From positions 1 to 53,339 of the forward strand of contig CANIZL010000041.1 of the NCBI GenBank assembly GCA_947471985.1: DNA of 53,339 bases. Direction: 5' to 3'. Made by a program: the position numbers and the translations under genes. How positions within the stretch are numbered: the stretch's first letter is position 1; every line of letters starts with the position of its first letter. Under the pieces are notes generated by a model. The model was given only the letters and a program-made list of their open reading frames with translations. It did not search any database and was not told the DNA's origin. Shown here in pieces: positions 1 to 6,182 of this stretch. Source of the stretch: Verrucomicrobiota bacterium. GTDB taxonomy: Bacteria; Verrucomicrobiota; Verrucomicrobiia; Limisphaerales; UBA9464.

Positions 1-1780
1 GGAATTGGCGTACCGAGAGCGTGATACCGAAATCCTGCTGCATCCGGGCCAGCAGGCGCATGGCGGAAAGCGAATGTCCCCCCGCCGCGTAAAAATTGTC
101 GCTGCCCGGGCCTGCCGCCTTCCCGAGGATTTCCTCCCAGATCCGCGCCACCCGGGCGGCCGATTCGGTGGCCGGAAGCGGGCGGGCGGGGACCTCGGGA
201 GCCGCTGCCAGCGCAACTTCGCCCCAAGTTGCCAGGGCCGAACGATCCAGTTTGCCGCTGGCCGTTCGGGGAAGGCGGTCGACGGTCCGAAAAATCGACG
301 GGACCATGGGCCCGGGAAAGTGCTCCGTCAGATATCGGCGGATTTCGTTAGGATCCCGCGGTTCGACCTCCCGGGGCACGACCAAGGCGAGCAATTCCAG
401 TTCCTGATGCCGATCCAGCCGGGTGGTCACCGCGGCTTCCCGAATCGTCGGGTGCTTTTCCAACGCCGCTTCCACGGCGGTGAGGTCCACGCCCAAGCCG
501 CGGATTTTCACCCGCAAATCCTGCCGCCCGCTGAACTCCAAAACGCCATCGGCGCGCCGAATCGCGTGATCTCCGGTATGATAACGGGGTTCGTTGGAAG
601 CTGGATCCACTCGGAATGCCTGAGCGGTGAGTTCCGGCTGACGCCAGTATCCCGGGGCCACGGCGGGGCTGGCGATGGTGATCTCGCCCGGCTCGCCGGC
701 ACCCACCTCGCGCCCTTCGGCATTCACCAGCCGCAAATCGACGCCGGGCAAGGGGCGTCCGATCGGTACCGGTCCCATGCCCTCCACGTCCGAGGCATCG
801 ACCCGGTGCAGGGCGTAATTTCCGGTCTCGGTGCTGGAGATGACGTTATACAAATCGCCGCGGGGAAAGGCTGATCGAAAACGAGGCAAATCCCGGCTGT
901 GAAGCGGTTCGCTGGTGACGCGGATCAGGCGGATCTCGGGGAAGCTTCGGTCCAGGGGGAGGGATTGGAGGAAGTGACGGAAAATCGAGGAGGGCGCGGT
1001 GAAGACGGTGGCGCGTTGCTGGAACAAGTGGTCGGCCAAGGGTGCCAGGCCCCGCTCGCGGAGATCGTATCCCAGAATCGTGGCTCCCCGTAAAAGCGCC
1101 CGCAGGAGGTTGGCGATTCCGTTGGCCGTGGACGGTGCGGCGAGAAAACACAGGCGATCCGTCGGCCGCAAGGATTGATCGCCGGTGAGCGCGTCGACAC
1201 TCCAGATCAAATTACGATGGGTGCGCTGGACGCCTTTGGGTTGCCCGGTCGAACCCGACGTGAACATCAAACAAGCGAGTGCCTCGGCGGAAACTTCCCA
1301 CCCCGGATCCGCAGCGGAAAAATCGGCATCGGTCCAGGGCGCGATCCAGCAGTCCACTCCCGGCGGCAGAATTCCAGCGAGTGTGGCGGCGGGGGCGGGC
1401 CCGGTGAGGACGGCCACCGGCTCGATGGCTGTGAGGGTGTCCCGGAGGTTGGCGAGCGGGGCCAGGGGATCCAATCCAACGACCGCATGCCCCGCTTTCA
1501 GCACCCCGAGGAAACCCGTCAGCTGCGCGACGCCCAACGGCAGCAGCAGGCCGAATCGTTGGCCGGGATCGGGCCAGCGGGCACGAAGTGCGTGGGCGAT
1601 CCGGTTGGCGGCGCGATTCAGTGCGCCGTAGGTGATGGATTCAGAATCGGTGAGAAAAGCGAGCGACTCAGGATAATGATGCGCTTGTTGCTGAAAGAGG
1701 TGACCGATGGAAGCCCACGCCGGGGCGGGTGGCGGTGTTACGTTCGGCTCGCCAAATTCGGGGATTCCCGGAGCGGTCAT
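1..1780 (-). CDS. NRPS-like adenylation and carrier protein (partial)
   Basis: Activates an acid as its adenylate and loads it on a carrier arm. The 593 visible residues start directly with an adenylation domain (no condensation domain): P-loop FTSGSTGQPKG at 173-183, an A5-like STETG at 316-320, YHTGD at 400-404 and the A10 lysine K510 in ASGK. A carrier domain follows, with AAGGHS and the phosphopantetheine serine at S570. The reading frame is still open at the left edge, so more domains may follow. The ATG at 1780 overlaps the stop of the upstream gene (ATGA, 1777-1780), which implies translational coupling. Aligned by eye with GrsA, the position of Asp235, which holds the alpha-amino group of amino acids, is Ala219 here; a non-amino-acid substrate is inferred. 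The product is unknown. Confidence 0.88.
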   Translation of the reverse strand, partial: MTAPGIPEFGEPNVTPPPAPAWASIGHLFQQQAHHYPESLAFLTDSESITYGALNRAANRIAHALRARWPDPGQRFGLLLPLGVAQLTGFLGVLKAGHAVVGLDPLAPLANLRDTLTAIEPVAVLTGPAPAATLAGILPPGVDCWIAPWTDADFSAADPGWEVSAEALACLMFTSGSTGQPKGVQRTHRNLIWSVDALTGDQSLRPTDRLCFLAAPSTANGIANLLRALLRGATILGYDLRERGLAPLADHLFQQRATVFTAPSSIFRHFLQSLPLDRSFPEIRLIRVTSEPLHSRDLPRFRSAFPRGDLYNVISSTETGNYALHRVDASDVEGMGPVPIGRPLPGVDLRLVNAEGREVGAGEPGEITIASPAVAPGYWRQPELTAQAFRVDPASNEPRYHTGDHAIRRADGVLEFSGRQDLRVKIRGLGVDLTAVEAALEKHPTIREAAVTTRLDRHQELELLALVVPREVEPRDPNEIRRYLTEHFPGPMVPSIFRTVDRLPRTASGKLDRSALATWGEVALAAAPEVPARPLPATESAARVARIWEEILGKAAGPGSDNFYAAGGHSLSAMRLLARMQQDFGITLSVRQF

Positions 1781-3741
1781 GGATAGACCGTTTGAATGCG
1801 GGTGTAGAATTCCCGATCCGCCTCACCGTGTTCGGGCGGTCCGAGACCGGAGGCTTTCCAACCCCCAAACGGTAGATCAACGGCGGCGCCGGCGGTGGAT
1901 TGATTTACCTTTAGGATGCCGGCCTGAGCGGTGGTGAGGAACGCCTGCTGGCGTTCGGCGTTTGTGGTGAAAACTGCGGCCACCAAGCCTTGGCGGACGC
2001 CGTTACAAAGCTCCAGTGCGTGCGCCCAGGTGTCCGCTGGTTGAATGACCAGAACGGGCCCGAAGAGTTCTTCCTGTACCAACTCATCGTCTGGGTGCTC
2101 GCAGACCACCACGGTGGGTGGCAAATAAGCGCCGACCTCCGGCGTGGCTGCGGCCGGCGGTGTCGGCGAGACGAAGGAGATTTCCGGGCGCGTGCGGGCT
2201 CGGTCGAGCGTGGCTCGGATTCGGTTCCGGTGGGCTGCGGAAATCAGCGGGCCGATGATGGTTTGGGGATCCAGCGGATCGCCGAGGGGCAGGCGGGCAG
2301 TGGCCGCCGAGAGCAACTGAAGGAATTCCGGCAGGCAGGTGCGATCCACGATGGCGCGGCGATTCGCCGTGCAGCGTTGTCCGGCCTGGGCGAAAGCCCC
2401 TTCGGCGATGAGTGCGGCGGCGCGAGGCAGGTCGGCGTCCGACCAGACCACCGCCCCATTGTTGCCACCCAGTTCCGCCTGCAACGGGATGTGTCGCCGC
2501 GCACAGATCTCCTGCGCCGCGTAGCCCGCCGACAGGGAACCCGTCAGGGAAACCGCATCGATGCCGGGATGGGAGAGCAGGGCCTCCGCCGTCGCCCGAT
2601 CACCGGTCAGCAGATTCAGCACGCCCATGGGGAATCCGGCAGCGTCCCAATGTTGCAGAAGTTGCGCGGCGATGTCGGATCCAGCTGGGGCGGGTTTCCA
2701 GACGACGGTGTTTCCGTGCGCCACGGCGGCGCCGAGTTTTCCCAGCGGCAGGAAAAGTGGGTTGTTCCACGGCGTCACCAACGCCACCACCCCCAGCGGA
2801 CGGCGACGAACATAGGGATGGTTCGAGTGTGGGGCGGGGGCGTCCGCGGGTTCCTCGCGGAGCCGTCGCACCAGGGCGTGCACTTGCGCGACTGCGATGG
2901 CCGCTTCTTCGCGGGCGAACCGGATGGGTTTCCCCGTTTCCTCGGCGATCGCCGACGCCCAGGACGGATCGTTGGCCATTCCTTCCGCCAACCGAGCCAA
3001 CGCCTCCGCGCGGGCAACGGGAGACCGGGCCGCCCAGTCGGGACAGGCCTGTCGGGCGCGCTCGACCGCCGCGGCCACTTCGGACGCCCGGGCGATGGGA
3101 ATTGGCGTTAACTCCCGGGTGGAGTGGGCCGGGGATTGACGGCGGATTACCGGGCTTTCTTTCGACAAAACGGGAGTGACCGTGTGCGTAGGGGGGGAAG
3201 TCGCGAGGAGTTCCGCGACGGAACAAAAACGGGCGCCGCGCGACGCCAGGTAGCGCCGGGTGATGGCGGCGTGCACGGGGTCATCGCTCCCGACGGCGTC
3301 GTCGACGATCGTGACCTGAAAGCCGTGCTGATACGCGTCCAGGGCCGTGGCCCGCAGGCAGGCGTGCAAGTGGACGCCCGCCAGCCAGAGCGTGTCGGCA
3401 CCGGATTCCCGGAGGATCGCCGCCAGAGTTGGCGCGCCAAACGCGCTGAAAAAGCGTTTGTGTGCGATTGGTTCCGACGCGGTGGGTTGAAGTTCCGGGG
3501 GCGGTTGGTGTCCGGGGGTTTCGCGGACGCACCGCCATTTCCCGGCGTGCACCCAGTGGGGCATGCGGGTGTCGGGACGGCGATCCACCGTGGTCCAAAC
3601 ATGCACCACCGGAATCTGGCGCTGACGACAGGCGCGCAGAAGCGCCGCGCAGCGTTCGATGAGGAAGCCGGCGGCGGGCTCGATGCCGGGCGCACGCAGG
3701 TAGTCCTGCTGGAGGTCGATGAGCAACAGGATCGGCTTCAC
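1777..3741 (-). CDS. isochorismatase-like hydrolase / aldehyde dehydrogenase fusion
   Basis: A 654-residue protein made of two enzymes. Residues 1 to about 185 are a cysteine hydrolase of the isochorismatase/nicotinamidase family with its full triad visible: D9, K95 and C128 (HLHACLR). After a short linker, residues about 210-650 form an NAD(P)-dependent aldehyde dehydrogenase with N326 (TPWNNP), E423 (ELGG), catalytic C457 (GQRCTAN) and EELFGPV near 557. Both active sites look intact. The start is GTG at 3741, seven bases after the stop of the dehydrogenase gene; the MKPILLLIDLQQD beginning fits the hydrolase fold exactly. It sits between an IMDH-like enzyme and an adenylation-carrier protein, so it probably makes or trims a precursor for that carrier. 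The substrates cannot be read from the sequence. Confidence 0.9.
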   Translation of the reverse strand: MKPILLLIDLQQDYLRAPGIEPAAGFLIERCAALLRACRQRQIPVVHVWTTVDRRPDTRMPHWVHAGKWRCVRETPGHQPPPELQPTASEPIAHKRFFSAFGAPTLAAILRESGADTLWLAGVHLHACLRATALDAYQHGFQVTIVDDAVGSDDPVHAAITRRYLASRGARFCSVAELLATSPPTHTVTPVLSKESPVIRRQSPAHSTRELTPIPIARASEVAAAVERARQACPDWAARSPVARAEALARLAEGMANDPSWASAIAEETGKPIRFAREEAAIAVAQVHALVRRLREEPADAPAPHSNHPYVRRRPLGVVALVTPWNNPLFLPLGKLGAAVAHGNTVVWKPAPAGSDIAAQLLQHWDAAGFPMGVLNLLTGDRATAEALLSHPGIDAVSLTGSLSAGYAAQEICARRHIPLQAELGGNNGAVVWSDADLPRAAALIAEGAFAQAGQRCTANRRAIVDRTCLPEFLQLLSAATARLPLGDPLDPQTIIGPLISAAHRNRIRATLDRARTRPEISFVSPTPPAAATPEVGAYLPPTVVVCEHPDDELVQEELFGPVLVIQPADTWAHALELCNGVRQGLVAAVFTTNAERQQAFLTTAQAGILKVNQSTAGAAVDLPFGGWKASGLGPPEHGEADREFYTRIQTVYP

Positions 3742-3748
3742 ACGCTTC

Positions 3749-4906
3749 TTAAGCTGCGGCCGGCGCCCGGACGGCCTCGGCCACCAATTGGCCTAATTGC
3801 CGGGTGCCAACGATCGGGTGGTTGCCCTCGGGGAGATCCGCTGTGCGCCAGCCCGCGCGCCAGACCGCCCGGACGGCGGCGTGGATCGCTTCGGCCGCGT
3901 CGATGAGACCGAAGCTTTCCCGGAGCATCAGTGCCGCGGAATAGATCTGGCCCAGAGGATTGGCCCGATCCGTGCCGGCCAGATCGTAGGCGGCACCGTG
4001 GTTGGTTTGATAGACCGCGTGGCCGGCGGCGGAAAAACTGCCACCGAAAGTCAGGGCCCGGGACCCCAGTAAAACGCCGCCGAGATCGGACAAGATGTCG
4101 CCAAACAAATTCGGGGCTACGATCACATCGAAGTCGCGCGGTTGCTGGAGGAGTCGATAGCCCGCGTAATCGATGTCGAGGAATTCACAGCCCACGGCGT
4201 GGGCGGCGGCGATGTCCTGGGCGCAGTCGCGCCAAAGTTCACTGATGCCGGGCACCCCGGCTTCCTTGTACACCACAGTAAGCTTGTTTCGTCGTTGTTG
4301 CGCCAGGCGGGCGGCGACCGTCACCACGCGGCGGACCTCCGTCTCGGAATAGCCAAAGGTGTGGTCGCGACGGCGTTCTCCCTTCGGATCGTGGGTCGAC
4401 ACGGCCTGGCCCTGATAGAGACCCGATGCCCCTTCCCTCACGATGAGGAGATCGACTTCCGCCGTGTGTCCATCGCGCATGCGGCCGGCACCGGCGAACT
4501 CCGCGGGGACGACGATGGGATTGAGTTTGCAGAAGAGATCGAACTGGGCGCGTAAGTCGTAGACATAGCGCCCGCCGCCCGGGCCATTGAGCAGGGCGCC
4601 GCCCCGGGAAAAAATCCGGGAGGCAAAGGCCACGACGTCCGCGGGCAGTGGGGGTTGTCCCCGCTTCTCCGCCAAGCGTCCGATCTCGCCGCCATACTCT
4701 AGTCCCAGGGTGAAACCGTGAACTGTCGCTGTGGCCTGAAGCACCTCCAGTGAGGCCTGAACCACCTCCGGTCCGATGCCCTCGCCGTTCAGCACTCCGA
4801 TGAGTACGTGGCGGCTCGCGGGCTGGCGAACTCCAGCGGAGAACTCGTTGCTGGCGAGCCAGTCCAGGCACCCGGCCCCGGCAATATTCGGCGGAGAAGG
4901 GGTCAT
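3749..4906 (-). CDS. isocitrate/isopropylmalate dehydrogenase-like protein
   Basis: Belongs to the beta-decarboxylating dehydrogenases that oxidise a 2-hydroxyacid (malate, isopropylmalate, isocitrate type) with NAD(P) and metal. With the ATG at 4906 it has 385 residues; GEGIGPE lies at 41-47, a typical N-terminus with about 30 extra residues. The frame is open further upstream to 5290, but that part looks non-coding and lies across from the transporter gene. Visible are VREGASGLYQGQ (Arg and Tyr), VVYKEAGVP (catalytic Lys) and NLFGDILSDLGG (metal-binding Asp pair). The ANLRP motif that normally supplies another substrate-binding Arg reads CKLNP, so the substrate is probably not ordinary isopropylmalate. 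It is first in the operon with the hydrolase-ALDH fusion and the NRPS-like protein. A housekeeping leuB role is less likely because no leu genes are nearby. Confidence 0.85.
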   Translation of the reverse strand: MTPSPPNIAGAGCLDWLASNEFSAGVRQPASRHVLIGVLNGEGIGPEVVQASLEVLQATATVHGFTLGLEYGGEIGRLAEKRGQPPLPADVVAFASRIFSRGGALLNGPGGGRYVYDLRAQFDLFCKLNPIVVPAEFAGAGRMRDGHTAEVDLLIVREGASGLYQGQAVSTHDPKGERRRDHTFGYSETEVRRVVTVAARLAQQRRNKLTVVYKEAGVPGISELWRDCAQDIAAAHAVGCEFLDIDYAGYRLLQQPRDFDVIVAPNLFGDILSDLGGVLLGSRALTFGGSFSAAGHAVYQTNHGAAYDLAGTDRANPLGQIYSAALMLRESFGLIDAAEAIHAAVRAVWRAGWRTADLPEGNHPIVGTRQLGQLVAEAVRAPAAA

Positions 4907-5166: not shown

Positions 5167-5194
5167 CTGACGCCTTCAGCAGCGGTGGTACAAT
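5167..5194 (+). promoter_or_regulatory. possible sigma-70 promoter for the CDF transporter
   Basis: CTGACG (5167-5172), a 16-base spacer and TACAAT (5189-5194). The -10 box overlaps the ATG at 5193, so if it is used, translation must begin downstream, for example at the ATG at 5289. By-eye match only. Confidence 0.35.
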
Positions 5195-6182
5195 GAGCAT
5201 GACTTTCGTCGATGCGTGCCTAGGCTGCCGGGCCGTGCTCGATCCAACGAAACCGCTCAACGATACCGCCGGGGCTGCTGCCCGGCGCATGCAGGGCTAT
5301 CGTTCGGGCGCGCGACTGGCTCTGCTCGGGGTGGCGGTCAATTTTCTGCTCGCGTTGGTTAAGATCGCCGCCGGCATCGTGGGACATTGCTATGCGCTGA
5401 TTGCGGATGGGATCGAATCGACCCTCGACATCTTCGGCTCGCTCGCCATTTGGTTCGGACTCAAGGTCGCGTCGGAGCCGCCCGACGACGAGCATCCCTA
5501 CGGTCATGGCAAGGCGGAGCCCCTGGCGGCGGCCATCGTGGCGTTTGCGGTCATTCTGGCGGCGATCGGACTGGCCGTAGAAAGCGTGCGCGAGATCATT
5601 ACCCCGCACCATTCCCCGGCACCGTTCACCCTCGGGGTGTTGGTGGTGGTCATTGTCGTCAAGGAGACGCTCTTTCGGCGGGTGGCCCGGGCGGCGGAGA
5701 GCCTCGGCAGCAGTGCGGTGAAGACGGACGCCTGGCATCACCGCTCGGACGCCATCACCTCGGGTGGCGCGTTCATCGGTATTTCCATTGCCCTGATCGG
5801 CGGTCCGGGTTGGGAACCCGCGGATGATTGGGCAGCGTTGTTTACCTGCGGCATCATCGGCTTCAATGGGTGGCAGTTGCTGAAGCCGGCACTGCTGGAA
5901 ATCATGGACACGGCGCCGCCGAAGGAACTCGAAACCAGTGTTCGGCAGATTGCCGGCACGGTGCCGGGGGTGGTCGAAGTGGAGAAGTGCCGCCTGCGCA
6001 AAATGGGGGTGGAGTTTTACGTCGACATCCACATCGGGGTGGCGGCGACGTTGACGGTGCGGGAAGGCCATGTGATTGCGCATGCGGTCAAGGATGCGAT
6101 CCGGGCGGCCAATCCCGCAGCGGCGGATGTCCTGGTGCACATTGAGCCGGTCGAGCCGGTCGTTGTGGCCGGTGGGGGGTGA
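5193..6182 (+). CDS. cation diffusion facilitator (CDF) metal transporter
   Basis: Exports divalent metal ions across the inner membrane by proton exchange, as known for the FieF/YiiP family. About six hydrophobic segments are visible, with the transport-site residues E75 and D79 (GIESTLD) in helix 2 and H182 and D186 (HHRSD) in helix 5. The motif DDEHPYGHGKAEPLAA lies in the loop after helix 2, and a cytoplasmic ferredoxin-like domain ends the protein. The frame from 5193 gives 329 residues, but the first 32 are not part of the fold and the ATG at 5289 (MQGYRSGARLALL, 297 residues) puts helix 1 where the family has it; a possible promoter overlapping 5193 also favours 5289. The metal cannot be told. 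It stands alone, divergent from the left-edge operon. Confidence 0.92.
   Translation: MSMTFVDACLGCRAVLDPTKPLNDTAGAAARRMQGYRSGARLALLGVAVNFLLALVKIAAGIVGHCYALIADGIESTLDIFGSLAIWFGLKVASEPPDDEHPYGHGKAEPLAAAIVAFAVILAAIGLAVESVREIITPHHSPAPFTLGVLVVVIVVKETLFRRVARAAESLGSSAVKTDAWHHRSDAITSGGAFIGISIALIGGPGWEPADDWAALFTCGIIGFNGWQLLKPALLEIMDTAPPKELETSVRQIAGTVPGVVEVEKCRLRKMGVEFYVDIHIGVAATLTVREGHVIAHAVKDAIRAANPAAADVLVHIEPVEPVVVAGGG

Follow-up and report, generated by a model that had tools for sequence, protein, structure and literature searches.

Nonribosomal peptide synthetases (NRPSs) whose loading module is served by dedicated precursor genes are known. In the cyanobacterial fma, portoamide and pahayokolide-like sets, as described in a preprint (PMC13252402), leucine-pathway genes, among them one of the 3-isopropylmalate dehydrogenase (IMDH) family, lie beside a loading module that selects alpha-keto acids, a selectivity which is itself a bioinformatic prediction; synthase, dehydratase and dehydrogenase genes are all there, and a ketoreductase (KR) reduces the keto acid. 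The fungal non-reducing quinone/furanone synthetases, composed of adenylation (A), carrier (T) and thioesterase (TE) domains, use aromatic alpha-keto acids according to PMC9047271. Here we analyzed a gene trio at the left edge of a 53,339-nucleotide stretch of DNA from a Verrucomicrobiota bacterium (assembly GCA_947471985.1, contig CANIZL010000041.1, positions 1 to 53,339; the window). Like the cyanobacterial sets, the trio has an IMDH-family gene next to an NRPS loading module whose predicted substrate is a non-amino acid. Unlike them, it supplies only a remodelled dehydrogenase paralog and a hydrolase fused to an aldehyde dehydrogenase (ALDH), and no KR was found. The likeness to the fungal A-T-TE enzymes lies in eight of the genomes carrying the gene set, which have an A-T-TE protein, with or without a preceding methyltransferase-like domain; Asp235 is absent in the seven compared. 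The window's own enzyme differs from the fungal form if contig C128 of the same genome is its continuation.

We interpret the trio as the precursor-and-loading part of an NRPS whose starter would be a non-amino acid, most likely an alpha-keto acid and less likely an alpha-hydroxy acid, and our confidence in this interpretation is evenly balanced. It is favored because the fusion and the dehydrogenase paralog share the same 14 of 320 genomes and adjoin each other and A domains that lack Asp235. No description of the gene set was found in the open-licence PubMed Central literature; it is apparently the precursor route that is new, rather than the principle of dedicating precursor genes to a loading module. 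The features of the locus are as follows.

3749..4906, minus strand: IMDH-type dehydrogenase paralog (Iso_dh) of an NRPS-associated clade; Pfam Iso_dh E=3e-62; ATG at 4906
1777..3741, minus strand: fusion of a cysteine hydrolase of the isochorismatase superfamily with an aldehyde dehydrogenase; Pfam Isochorismatase E=8e-37 and Aldedh E=1e-116; GTG start
3214..3732, minus strand: isochorismatase-superfamily hydrolase domain of the fusion; PF00857, residues 4-176
1786..3150, minus strand: aldehyde dehydrogenase domain of the fusion, with residues of the acid-releasing type; PF00171, residues 198-652
2..1780, minus strand: NRPS initiation part A-T, with no preceding condensation (C) domain, cut by the contig end; AMP-binding E=1e-60, AMP-binding_C and PP-binding
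251..1696, minus strand: first adenylation domain, with Ala for Asp235, ISSTE in place of YGPTE as the A5 motif, and Arg299
2..154, minus strand: carrier (T/PCP) domain, partial, with the GGHSL serine; PF00550, residues 543-593

Organization and distribution of the gene trio

The window is the entire contig C41 of its genome (G000), end to end, so its left edge is an end of the assembly and not of a gene; the A-T frame leaves the contig inside the carrier domain. A base-by-base check of the trio bore out its 7-base gap, its ATGA overlap and the ATG at 4906, together with the tight linkage of the three minus-strand genes on which the sequence-only reading had been built, and the genes apparently form one operon. 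Since the right-hand neighbor is a divergent cation-efflux transporter at 5193, the operon starts at the dehydrogenase, although the longest open frame containing it already begins at 5290. Chance is far from explaining the arrangement, because the fusion, the dehydrogenase and the A-T part recur in relatives, with protein identities of approximately 42-63% for the fusion and the dehydrogenase and approximately 31-49% for the A-T part.

When contigs were scanned with the window's fusion as query, a single locus was matched, in a Planctomycetales metagenome-assembled genome (MAG; L024/G320). The full fusion is present in six of the 50 genomes of the window's family (G000, G015, G016, G038, G039 and G040). 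With a fusion profile, 14 carriers were found among 320 genomes of the order, two further ones (G775 and G782) in a 387-genome sample of the phylum, and five among 397 genomes from the class of the Planctomycetales MAG, giving 21 carriers in total. A profile of the dehydrogenase paralog, searched against the same 320 genomes, recovered exactly the 14 fusion carriers and no others. This profile was built from carrier loci, so relatives with matches worse than E 1e-90 would escape it; in the eight genomes compared for this, no second Iso_dh match came near the first, the best reaching E 9e-75. The chance of an identical 14/320 distribution is approximately 1e-24 if draws are independent, although the genomes are related, the 14 representing five families and eight genera. 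Conservation of the trio as a unit had been set beforehand as a test of the sequence-only reading, and the trio is a unit conserved across genomes.

The paralog lies directly upstream of the fusion or ALDH gene in 18 of the 21 carriers. In the remaining three (G015, G016 and G038) it is on another contig, each time adjoining an A-domain gene without Asp235. An A-T gene stands at the fusion locus in 17 of the 21, on the opposite strand in G782 and before the dehydrogenase in the Planctomycetales locus L024. The four carriers without it there are G038, where an A-domain gene adjoins the paralog, G084 and G702, whose loci stop at a contig edge, and G517. The gene neighborhood varies between carriers. 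In the trees of both the paralog and the ALDH, a clade is formed by G084 (same order), G782 (same class) and G330 (class of the Planctomycetales MAG); since this clade crosses from the window's phylum to that class in both trees, the two genes seem to move together, which suggests that the dehydrogenase and fusion genes have been exchanged together. The gene set, its conservation and co-occurrence, the type of the A domain and the distinct IMDH clade are all read from sequence.

Frame breaks were observed in the fusion of G246 (L048 8573-10506) and in the dehydrogenases of G082 (L052 10978-12029) and G038 (L101 1529-2590), which are either assembly errors or decayed copies. The genome of the window also has a 2827-aa NRPS frame on contig C38, and further pieces of NRPS genes close to the ends of contigs C30 and C95 (L102, L103, L098).

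The dehydrogenase paralog and the hydrolase-ALDH fusion

The best NCBIfam model for the window's dehydrogenase was LeuB (TIGR00169), at 201.9 bits and below the cut-off of 353.2. The predicted structure has the IMDH fold (mean pLDDT 88.9), with a best VIA-align of Z 46.0 to 5j33_A (rmsd 1.6, 345 aligned). Set against 11 other Iso_dh proteins from nine carrier genomes, the paralogs group together in a clade of their own (100/100); this comparison took in 19 paralogs from the 21 carriers, those of G038 and G082 being left out for their frame breaks, and two partial matches (L094, L096) were excluded from the 11. Catalytic Lys185, Tyr139, Asp217, Asp241 and Asp245 are kept in all 19 paralogs, and Arg94 and Arg132 are retained. 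Arg104 is lost in 19/19, with N, S, V or T in its place (Asn in the window), whereas it is Arg in 11/11 of the other family members. The specificity loop is shortened and a new Arg101 is invariant. The residue numbering and the role of Arg94, Arg104 and Arg132 are those of IMDH. Because its score is under the cut-off and Arg104 is lost, the paralog is not LeuB, from which its shorter loop, Arg101 and own clade also set it apart; it shares with LeuB the fold and the catalytic Lys, Tyr and Asp, and should work alike, by NAD-linked oxidation with probable decarboxylation.

The hydrolase domain had been called isochorismatase-like, an assignment that holds for the superfamily and not for the type. 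A triad of Asp, Lys and Cys (D9, K95 and C128) was found in 19/19 fusions, spread over two frames in G246; the check took in all 19 fusions, 12 of which had been in the earlier fusion alignment. True isochorismatases of the EntB/PhzD type are not known to have a nucleophilic Cys. The Asp-Lys-Cys triad thus speaks for a cysteine hydrolase and against an isochorismatase; judged from its sequence, the domain is of the cysteine amidohydrolase type. Among solved chains the best match was a hypothetical pyrazinamidase/nicotinamidase (1ilw) and the third an N-carbamoylsarcosine amidase-related protein (3eef), while the true isochorismatase 2fq1 ranked lower. The domain is like the cysteine hydrolases of the isochorismatase superfamily (nicotinamidase, N-carbamoylsarcosine amidase) in its triad and best chains, and unlike them in being fused to an ALDH.

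In the ALDH domain, N326, E423 and C457 are present in 21/21 carriers, and the domain should release a free acid, as we infer from these residues. Solved chains that rank high for this domain include those of betaine-aldehyde and aminomuconate-semialdehyde dehydrogenases. In a tree with five other ALDHs of the family, those of the 21 carriers group as one clade (100/100).

The first A domain and the synthetase lines

The A-T protein is of NRPS type, as the sequence-only reading had proposed, with an A domain followed by a T domain bearing the GGHSL serine. We compared 19 first A domains, namely 16 of the 17 at fusion loci (that of G246 was left out) and three that lie beside the paralog elsewhere. 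Positions are in GrsA numbering and were mapped by alignment on motifs; the ten positions are those listed in PMC11253843. Asp235 is absent in 18/19, the nineteenth (G440) being gapped there, and the Pro of YGPTE is absent in 19/19, whereas both are present in 7/7 downstream A domains. Arg occurs at position 299 in 11/16 first A domains at fusion loci and in 14/19 when the three further ones are included; it may hold a second acidic group of the substrate. According to PMC11253843, alpha-hydroxy acid A domains have Ala or Gly at 235, an alpha-keto acid domain has Ile there, and a Met replacing the Pro is important for keto acids. The loss of Asp235 and of the Pro is what one would expect of a domain activating an alpha-keto acid, an alpha-hydroxy acid or some other non-amino acid.

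When the T-C part of the G015 protein was compared with the window's genome, the best match fell 26 bases short of the right-hand end of contig C128, in a 1353-aa open frame that enters from this end and has the domains C-A-T-TE. The C domain of this frame most resembles the first ones of G015, G016, G039 and G040 (51, 51, 48 and 44% identity), with which it shares the motif HHxx[SC]DRWS; seven other C domains compared with it show 26-39% identity and different motifs. From the G015 alignment, approximately 15 codons are estimated to be missing between contigs C41 and C128. The window's A-T protein would thus probably continue on contig C128, as the start of a longer A-T-C-A-T-TE synthetase, a layout present in a single gene in G440 and G016. 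The code of the second A domain, D-A-F-F-L-G-V, is close to Ile/Val codes. Six further proteins of contig C128 were scanned (cupin, histidine kinase and response regulator, ArgJ, amino-acid kinase, RNase H); since they look housekeeping or regulatory, the locus seems small.

Layouts of the third gene differ between carriers. It encodes A-T-TE in five (G246, G247, G269, G304 and G775), a methyltransferase-like domain followed by A-T-TE in G082, G244 and G305 (this domain is below the Pfam cut-off, with weak hits only), A-T-C in G015, G016 and G330, A-T-C-A-T-TE in G440, A-T-C-A-T-C-A-T in G039, and four modules with a TE in G040. Condensation domains are present in G015, G016, G039, G040, G330 and G440; none is in the window, where the A-T frame runs into the contig end. 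In L024 and G782 the A-T part has a tail lacking a Pfam match (L024 5255-6274; L067 12256-12948), and the L024 tail gave a weak acyltransferase-like NCBIfam hit (E 2e-5). A second line, adjoining the paralog, is A-T-C-A-T-TE in G016, and the G015 paralog is adjoined by an A-T-TE protein.

Other genes accompany some of the loci. A Rieske oxygenase (phthalate-4,5-dioxygenase/LigXa-like) stands beside the fusion or paralog in G016, G247, G269 and G517; as a core gene it was rejected, being present in 3/14 carriers of the order, and it is regarded as optional tailoring. In G016 (L100 323-8741) the Rieske oxygenase, the paralog and the A-T-C-A-T-TE synthetase are neighbors, on a different contig from the fusion. 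In the G440 locus (L063 4326-8168, L122 13259-13999), the fusion and the A-T-C-A-T-TE gene are separated by genes for a HemN-like radical-SAM protein, a glycosyltransferase-like protein and perhaps another transferase. A pair of proteins of 337 and 383 aa, 57% identical, adjoins the cassette in G782 (L067 11223-12236) and L024 (9714-10865). These proteins gave no Pfam match, a profile search of solved structures was empty, and their AlphaFold model (pLDDT 31.8) was not used; an Fe(II)/2-oxoglutarate oxygenase is suggested by the pattern H-x-D...H in their sequences.

The proposed starter unit and its alternatives

The substrates, the order of steps and the product in the following scheme are inferred. 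The paralog would act on a 2-hydroxy acid that bears an unusual substituent, oxidizing and probably decarboxylating it. The ALDH domain would turn an aldehyde of this compound into a carboxylate, and the cysteine hydrolase would cut an amide or carbamoyl group along the way. The resulting acid would lack an alpha-amino group and might be acidic at a second end as well. Adenylated with ATP by the first A domain, it would be attached to the T domain as the starter unit. Oxidation followed by acid loading, as proposed in the sequence-only reading, is plausible. In the window's bacterium the starter would then probably be joined to one hydrophobic residue, Ile/Val-like by its code, by the C-A-T-TE protein of contig C128. 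In relatives, A-T-TE proteins would release the acid, and the other lines (A-T-C, multimodular) would join it to amino acids. IMDH-type enzymes yield alpha-keto acids, and because of this and of the keto/hydroxy features of the A domain an alpha-keto acid is favored.

Several observations weigh against this scheme. No alkylmalate synthase or isomerase was recognized at the loci, and there is no extra HMGL-like synthase, with 3, 3, 3, 3, 3 and 4 matches in six carriers versus 4, 3, 3, 3, 3 and 3 in six non-carriers; the paralog's substrate is therefore without a visible dedicated source, and a dedicated alkylmalate synthase was rejected as a candidate for want of an extra copy in the six carriers. 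Given the loss of Arg104, the substrate could even be no 3-alkylmalate at all. The hydrolase domain was not seen in carriers G330 and G775 and may be dispensable, and in G517 there is no A-T gene within the 20 kb fetched. Depsipeptide modules known to use keto acids carry a KR. Pfam showed no KR in any of the 17 A-T proteins from the fusion loci, in the three further ones or on contig C128, the modules of the window and of G038 being covered as far as their contig ends and the C41-C128 line except for a few codons between the two contigs; a keto acid would consequently be used without reduction on the line. In PMC11253843 one Phe-activating domain has Val at 235, and a keto-acid candidate retaining Asp235 is described in PMC10949194, so the position-235 rule is not absolute. 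As for the continuation, the ends of contigs C41 and C128 do not overlap and their junction is not covered by sequence; the likeness to the contig C128 C domain holds for 4/7 first C domains, the other three (G440, G330 and the second line of G016) having 36, 26 and 35% identity and lacking its motif.

The nature of the acid is where the nearest alternatives lie. The block might be an alpha-hydroxy or plain dicarboxylic acid, the ALDH and hydrolase creating a distal carboxylate held by Arg299 while the dehydrogenase only trims the carbon skeleton. The frequency of Arg299 (11/16 at fusion loci, 14/19 with the three further domains) is in keeping with this, as is Ala or Gly at 235, which fits the alpha-hydroxy acid domains described in PMC11253843; the ALDH domain's best scores also include models of alpha-ketoglutaric semialdehyde dehydrogenase and of 2,5-dioxovalerate dehydrogenase, all far under their cut-offs. 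Arg299 is, however, replaced in 5/16 (C, G, Y, N, K) and was mapped by alignment only, and an IMDH-type enzyme normally gives an alpha-keto acid, so that we consider such a block rather unlikely. An aromatic acid, with the oxygenase and ALDH tailoring ring or side chain and an A domain of the aryl-acid kind, seems to us improbable. The phthalate-4,5-dioxygenase/LigXa-like gene does adjoin the fusion or paralog in four carriers and within the order was found only in three carrier genomes, but these are three of 14, and it was not found in the window's genome; and although the A-T-TE relatives resemble enzymes using aromatic alpha-keto acids (PMC9047271), the A5 motif differs from the aryl-acid QQVxFMAEGL form given in PMC11253843.

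That the dehydrogenase and the fusion serve ordinary catabolism, next to an NRPS gene by coincidence, would explain the differing neighborhoods and the lack of an A-T gene within 20 kb in G517, and all the enzyme families concerned are common in catabolism. This is very improbable in view of the identical presence in 14/320 genomes and of the repeated adjacency to A domains without Asp235, even where paralog and fusion sit apart. Least credible, to the point of being nearly dismissed, is a phosphonate or siderophore pathway. The sequence-only reading had offered a phosphonate route, and IMDH-like enzymes occur in some phosphonate pathways; this route was rejected, since no PEP (phosphoenolpyruvate) mutase (TIGR02320) was found at E<=0.001 in the window's genome, which is 96% complete. 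Against a siderophore stand the hydrolase, which by its motif is not of the isochorismatase type, and the six further contig C128 proteins scanned, among which there was no siderophore gene, a genome-wide search not having been made.

Somewhat more tentatively than the main interpretation, with confidence just short of even, we propose that the locus represents a new route to an NRPS starter acid, in which an IMDH paralog re-purposed beyond 3-alkylmalates works with a hydrolase-ALDH fusion as a cassette exchangeable between Verrucomicrobiota and Planctomycetota, combined with at least four synthetase layouts and providing an entire family of small molecules with one common building block. If this is true, the biochemical question becomes what a leucine-pathway dehydrogenase without its substrate-holding Arg oxidizes and which acid the first A domain loads. 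The loci would indicate a family of natural products that was not found described in the open-licence PubMed Central literature searched, and the all-or-none cassette would be a ready sequence handle with which to mine bacterial groups generally little explored as natural-product producers.

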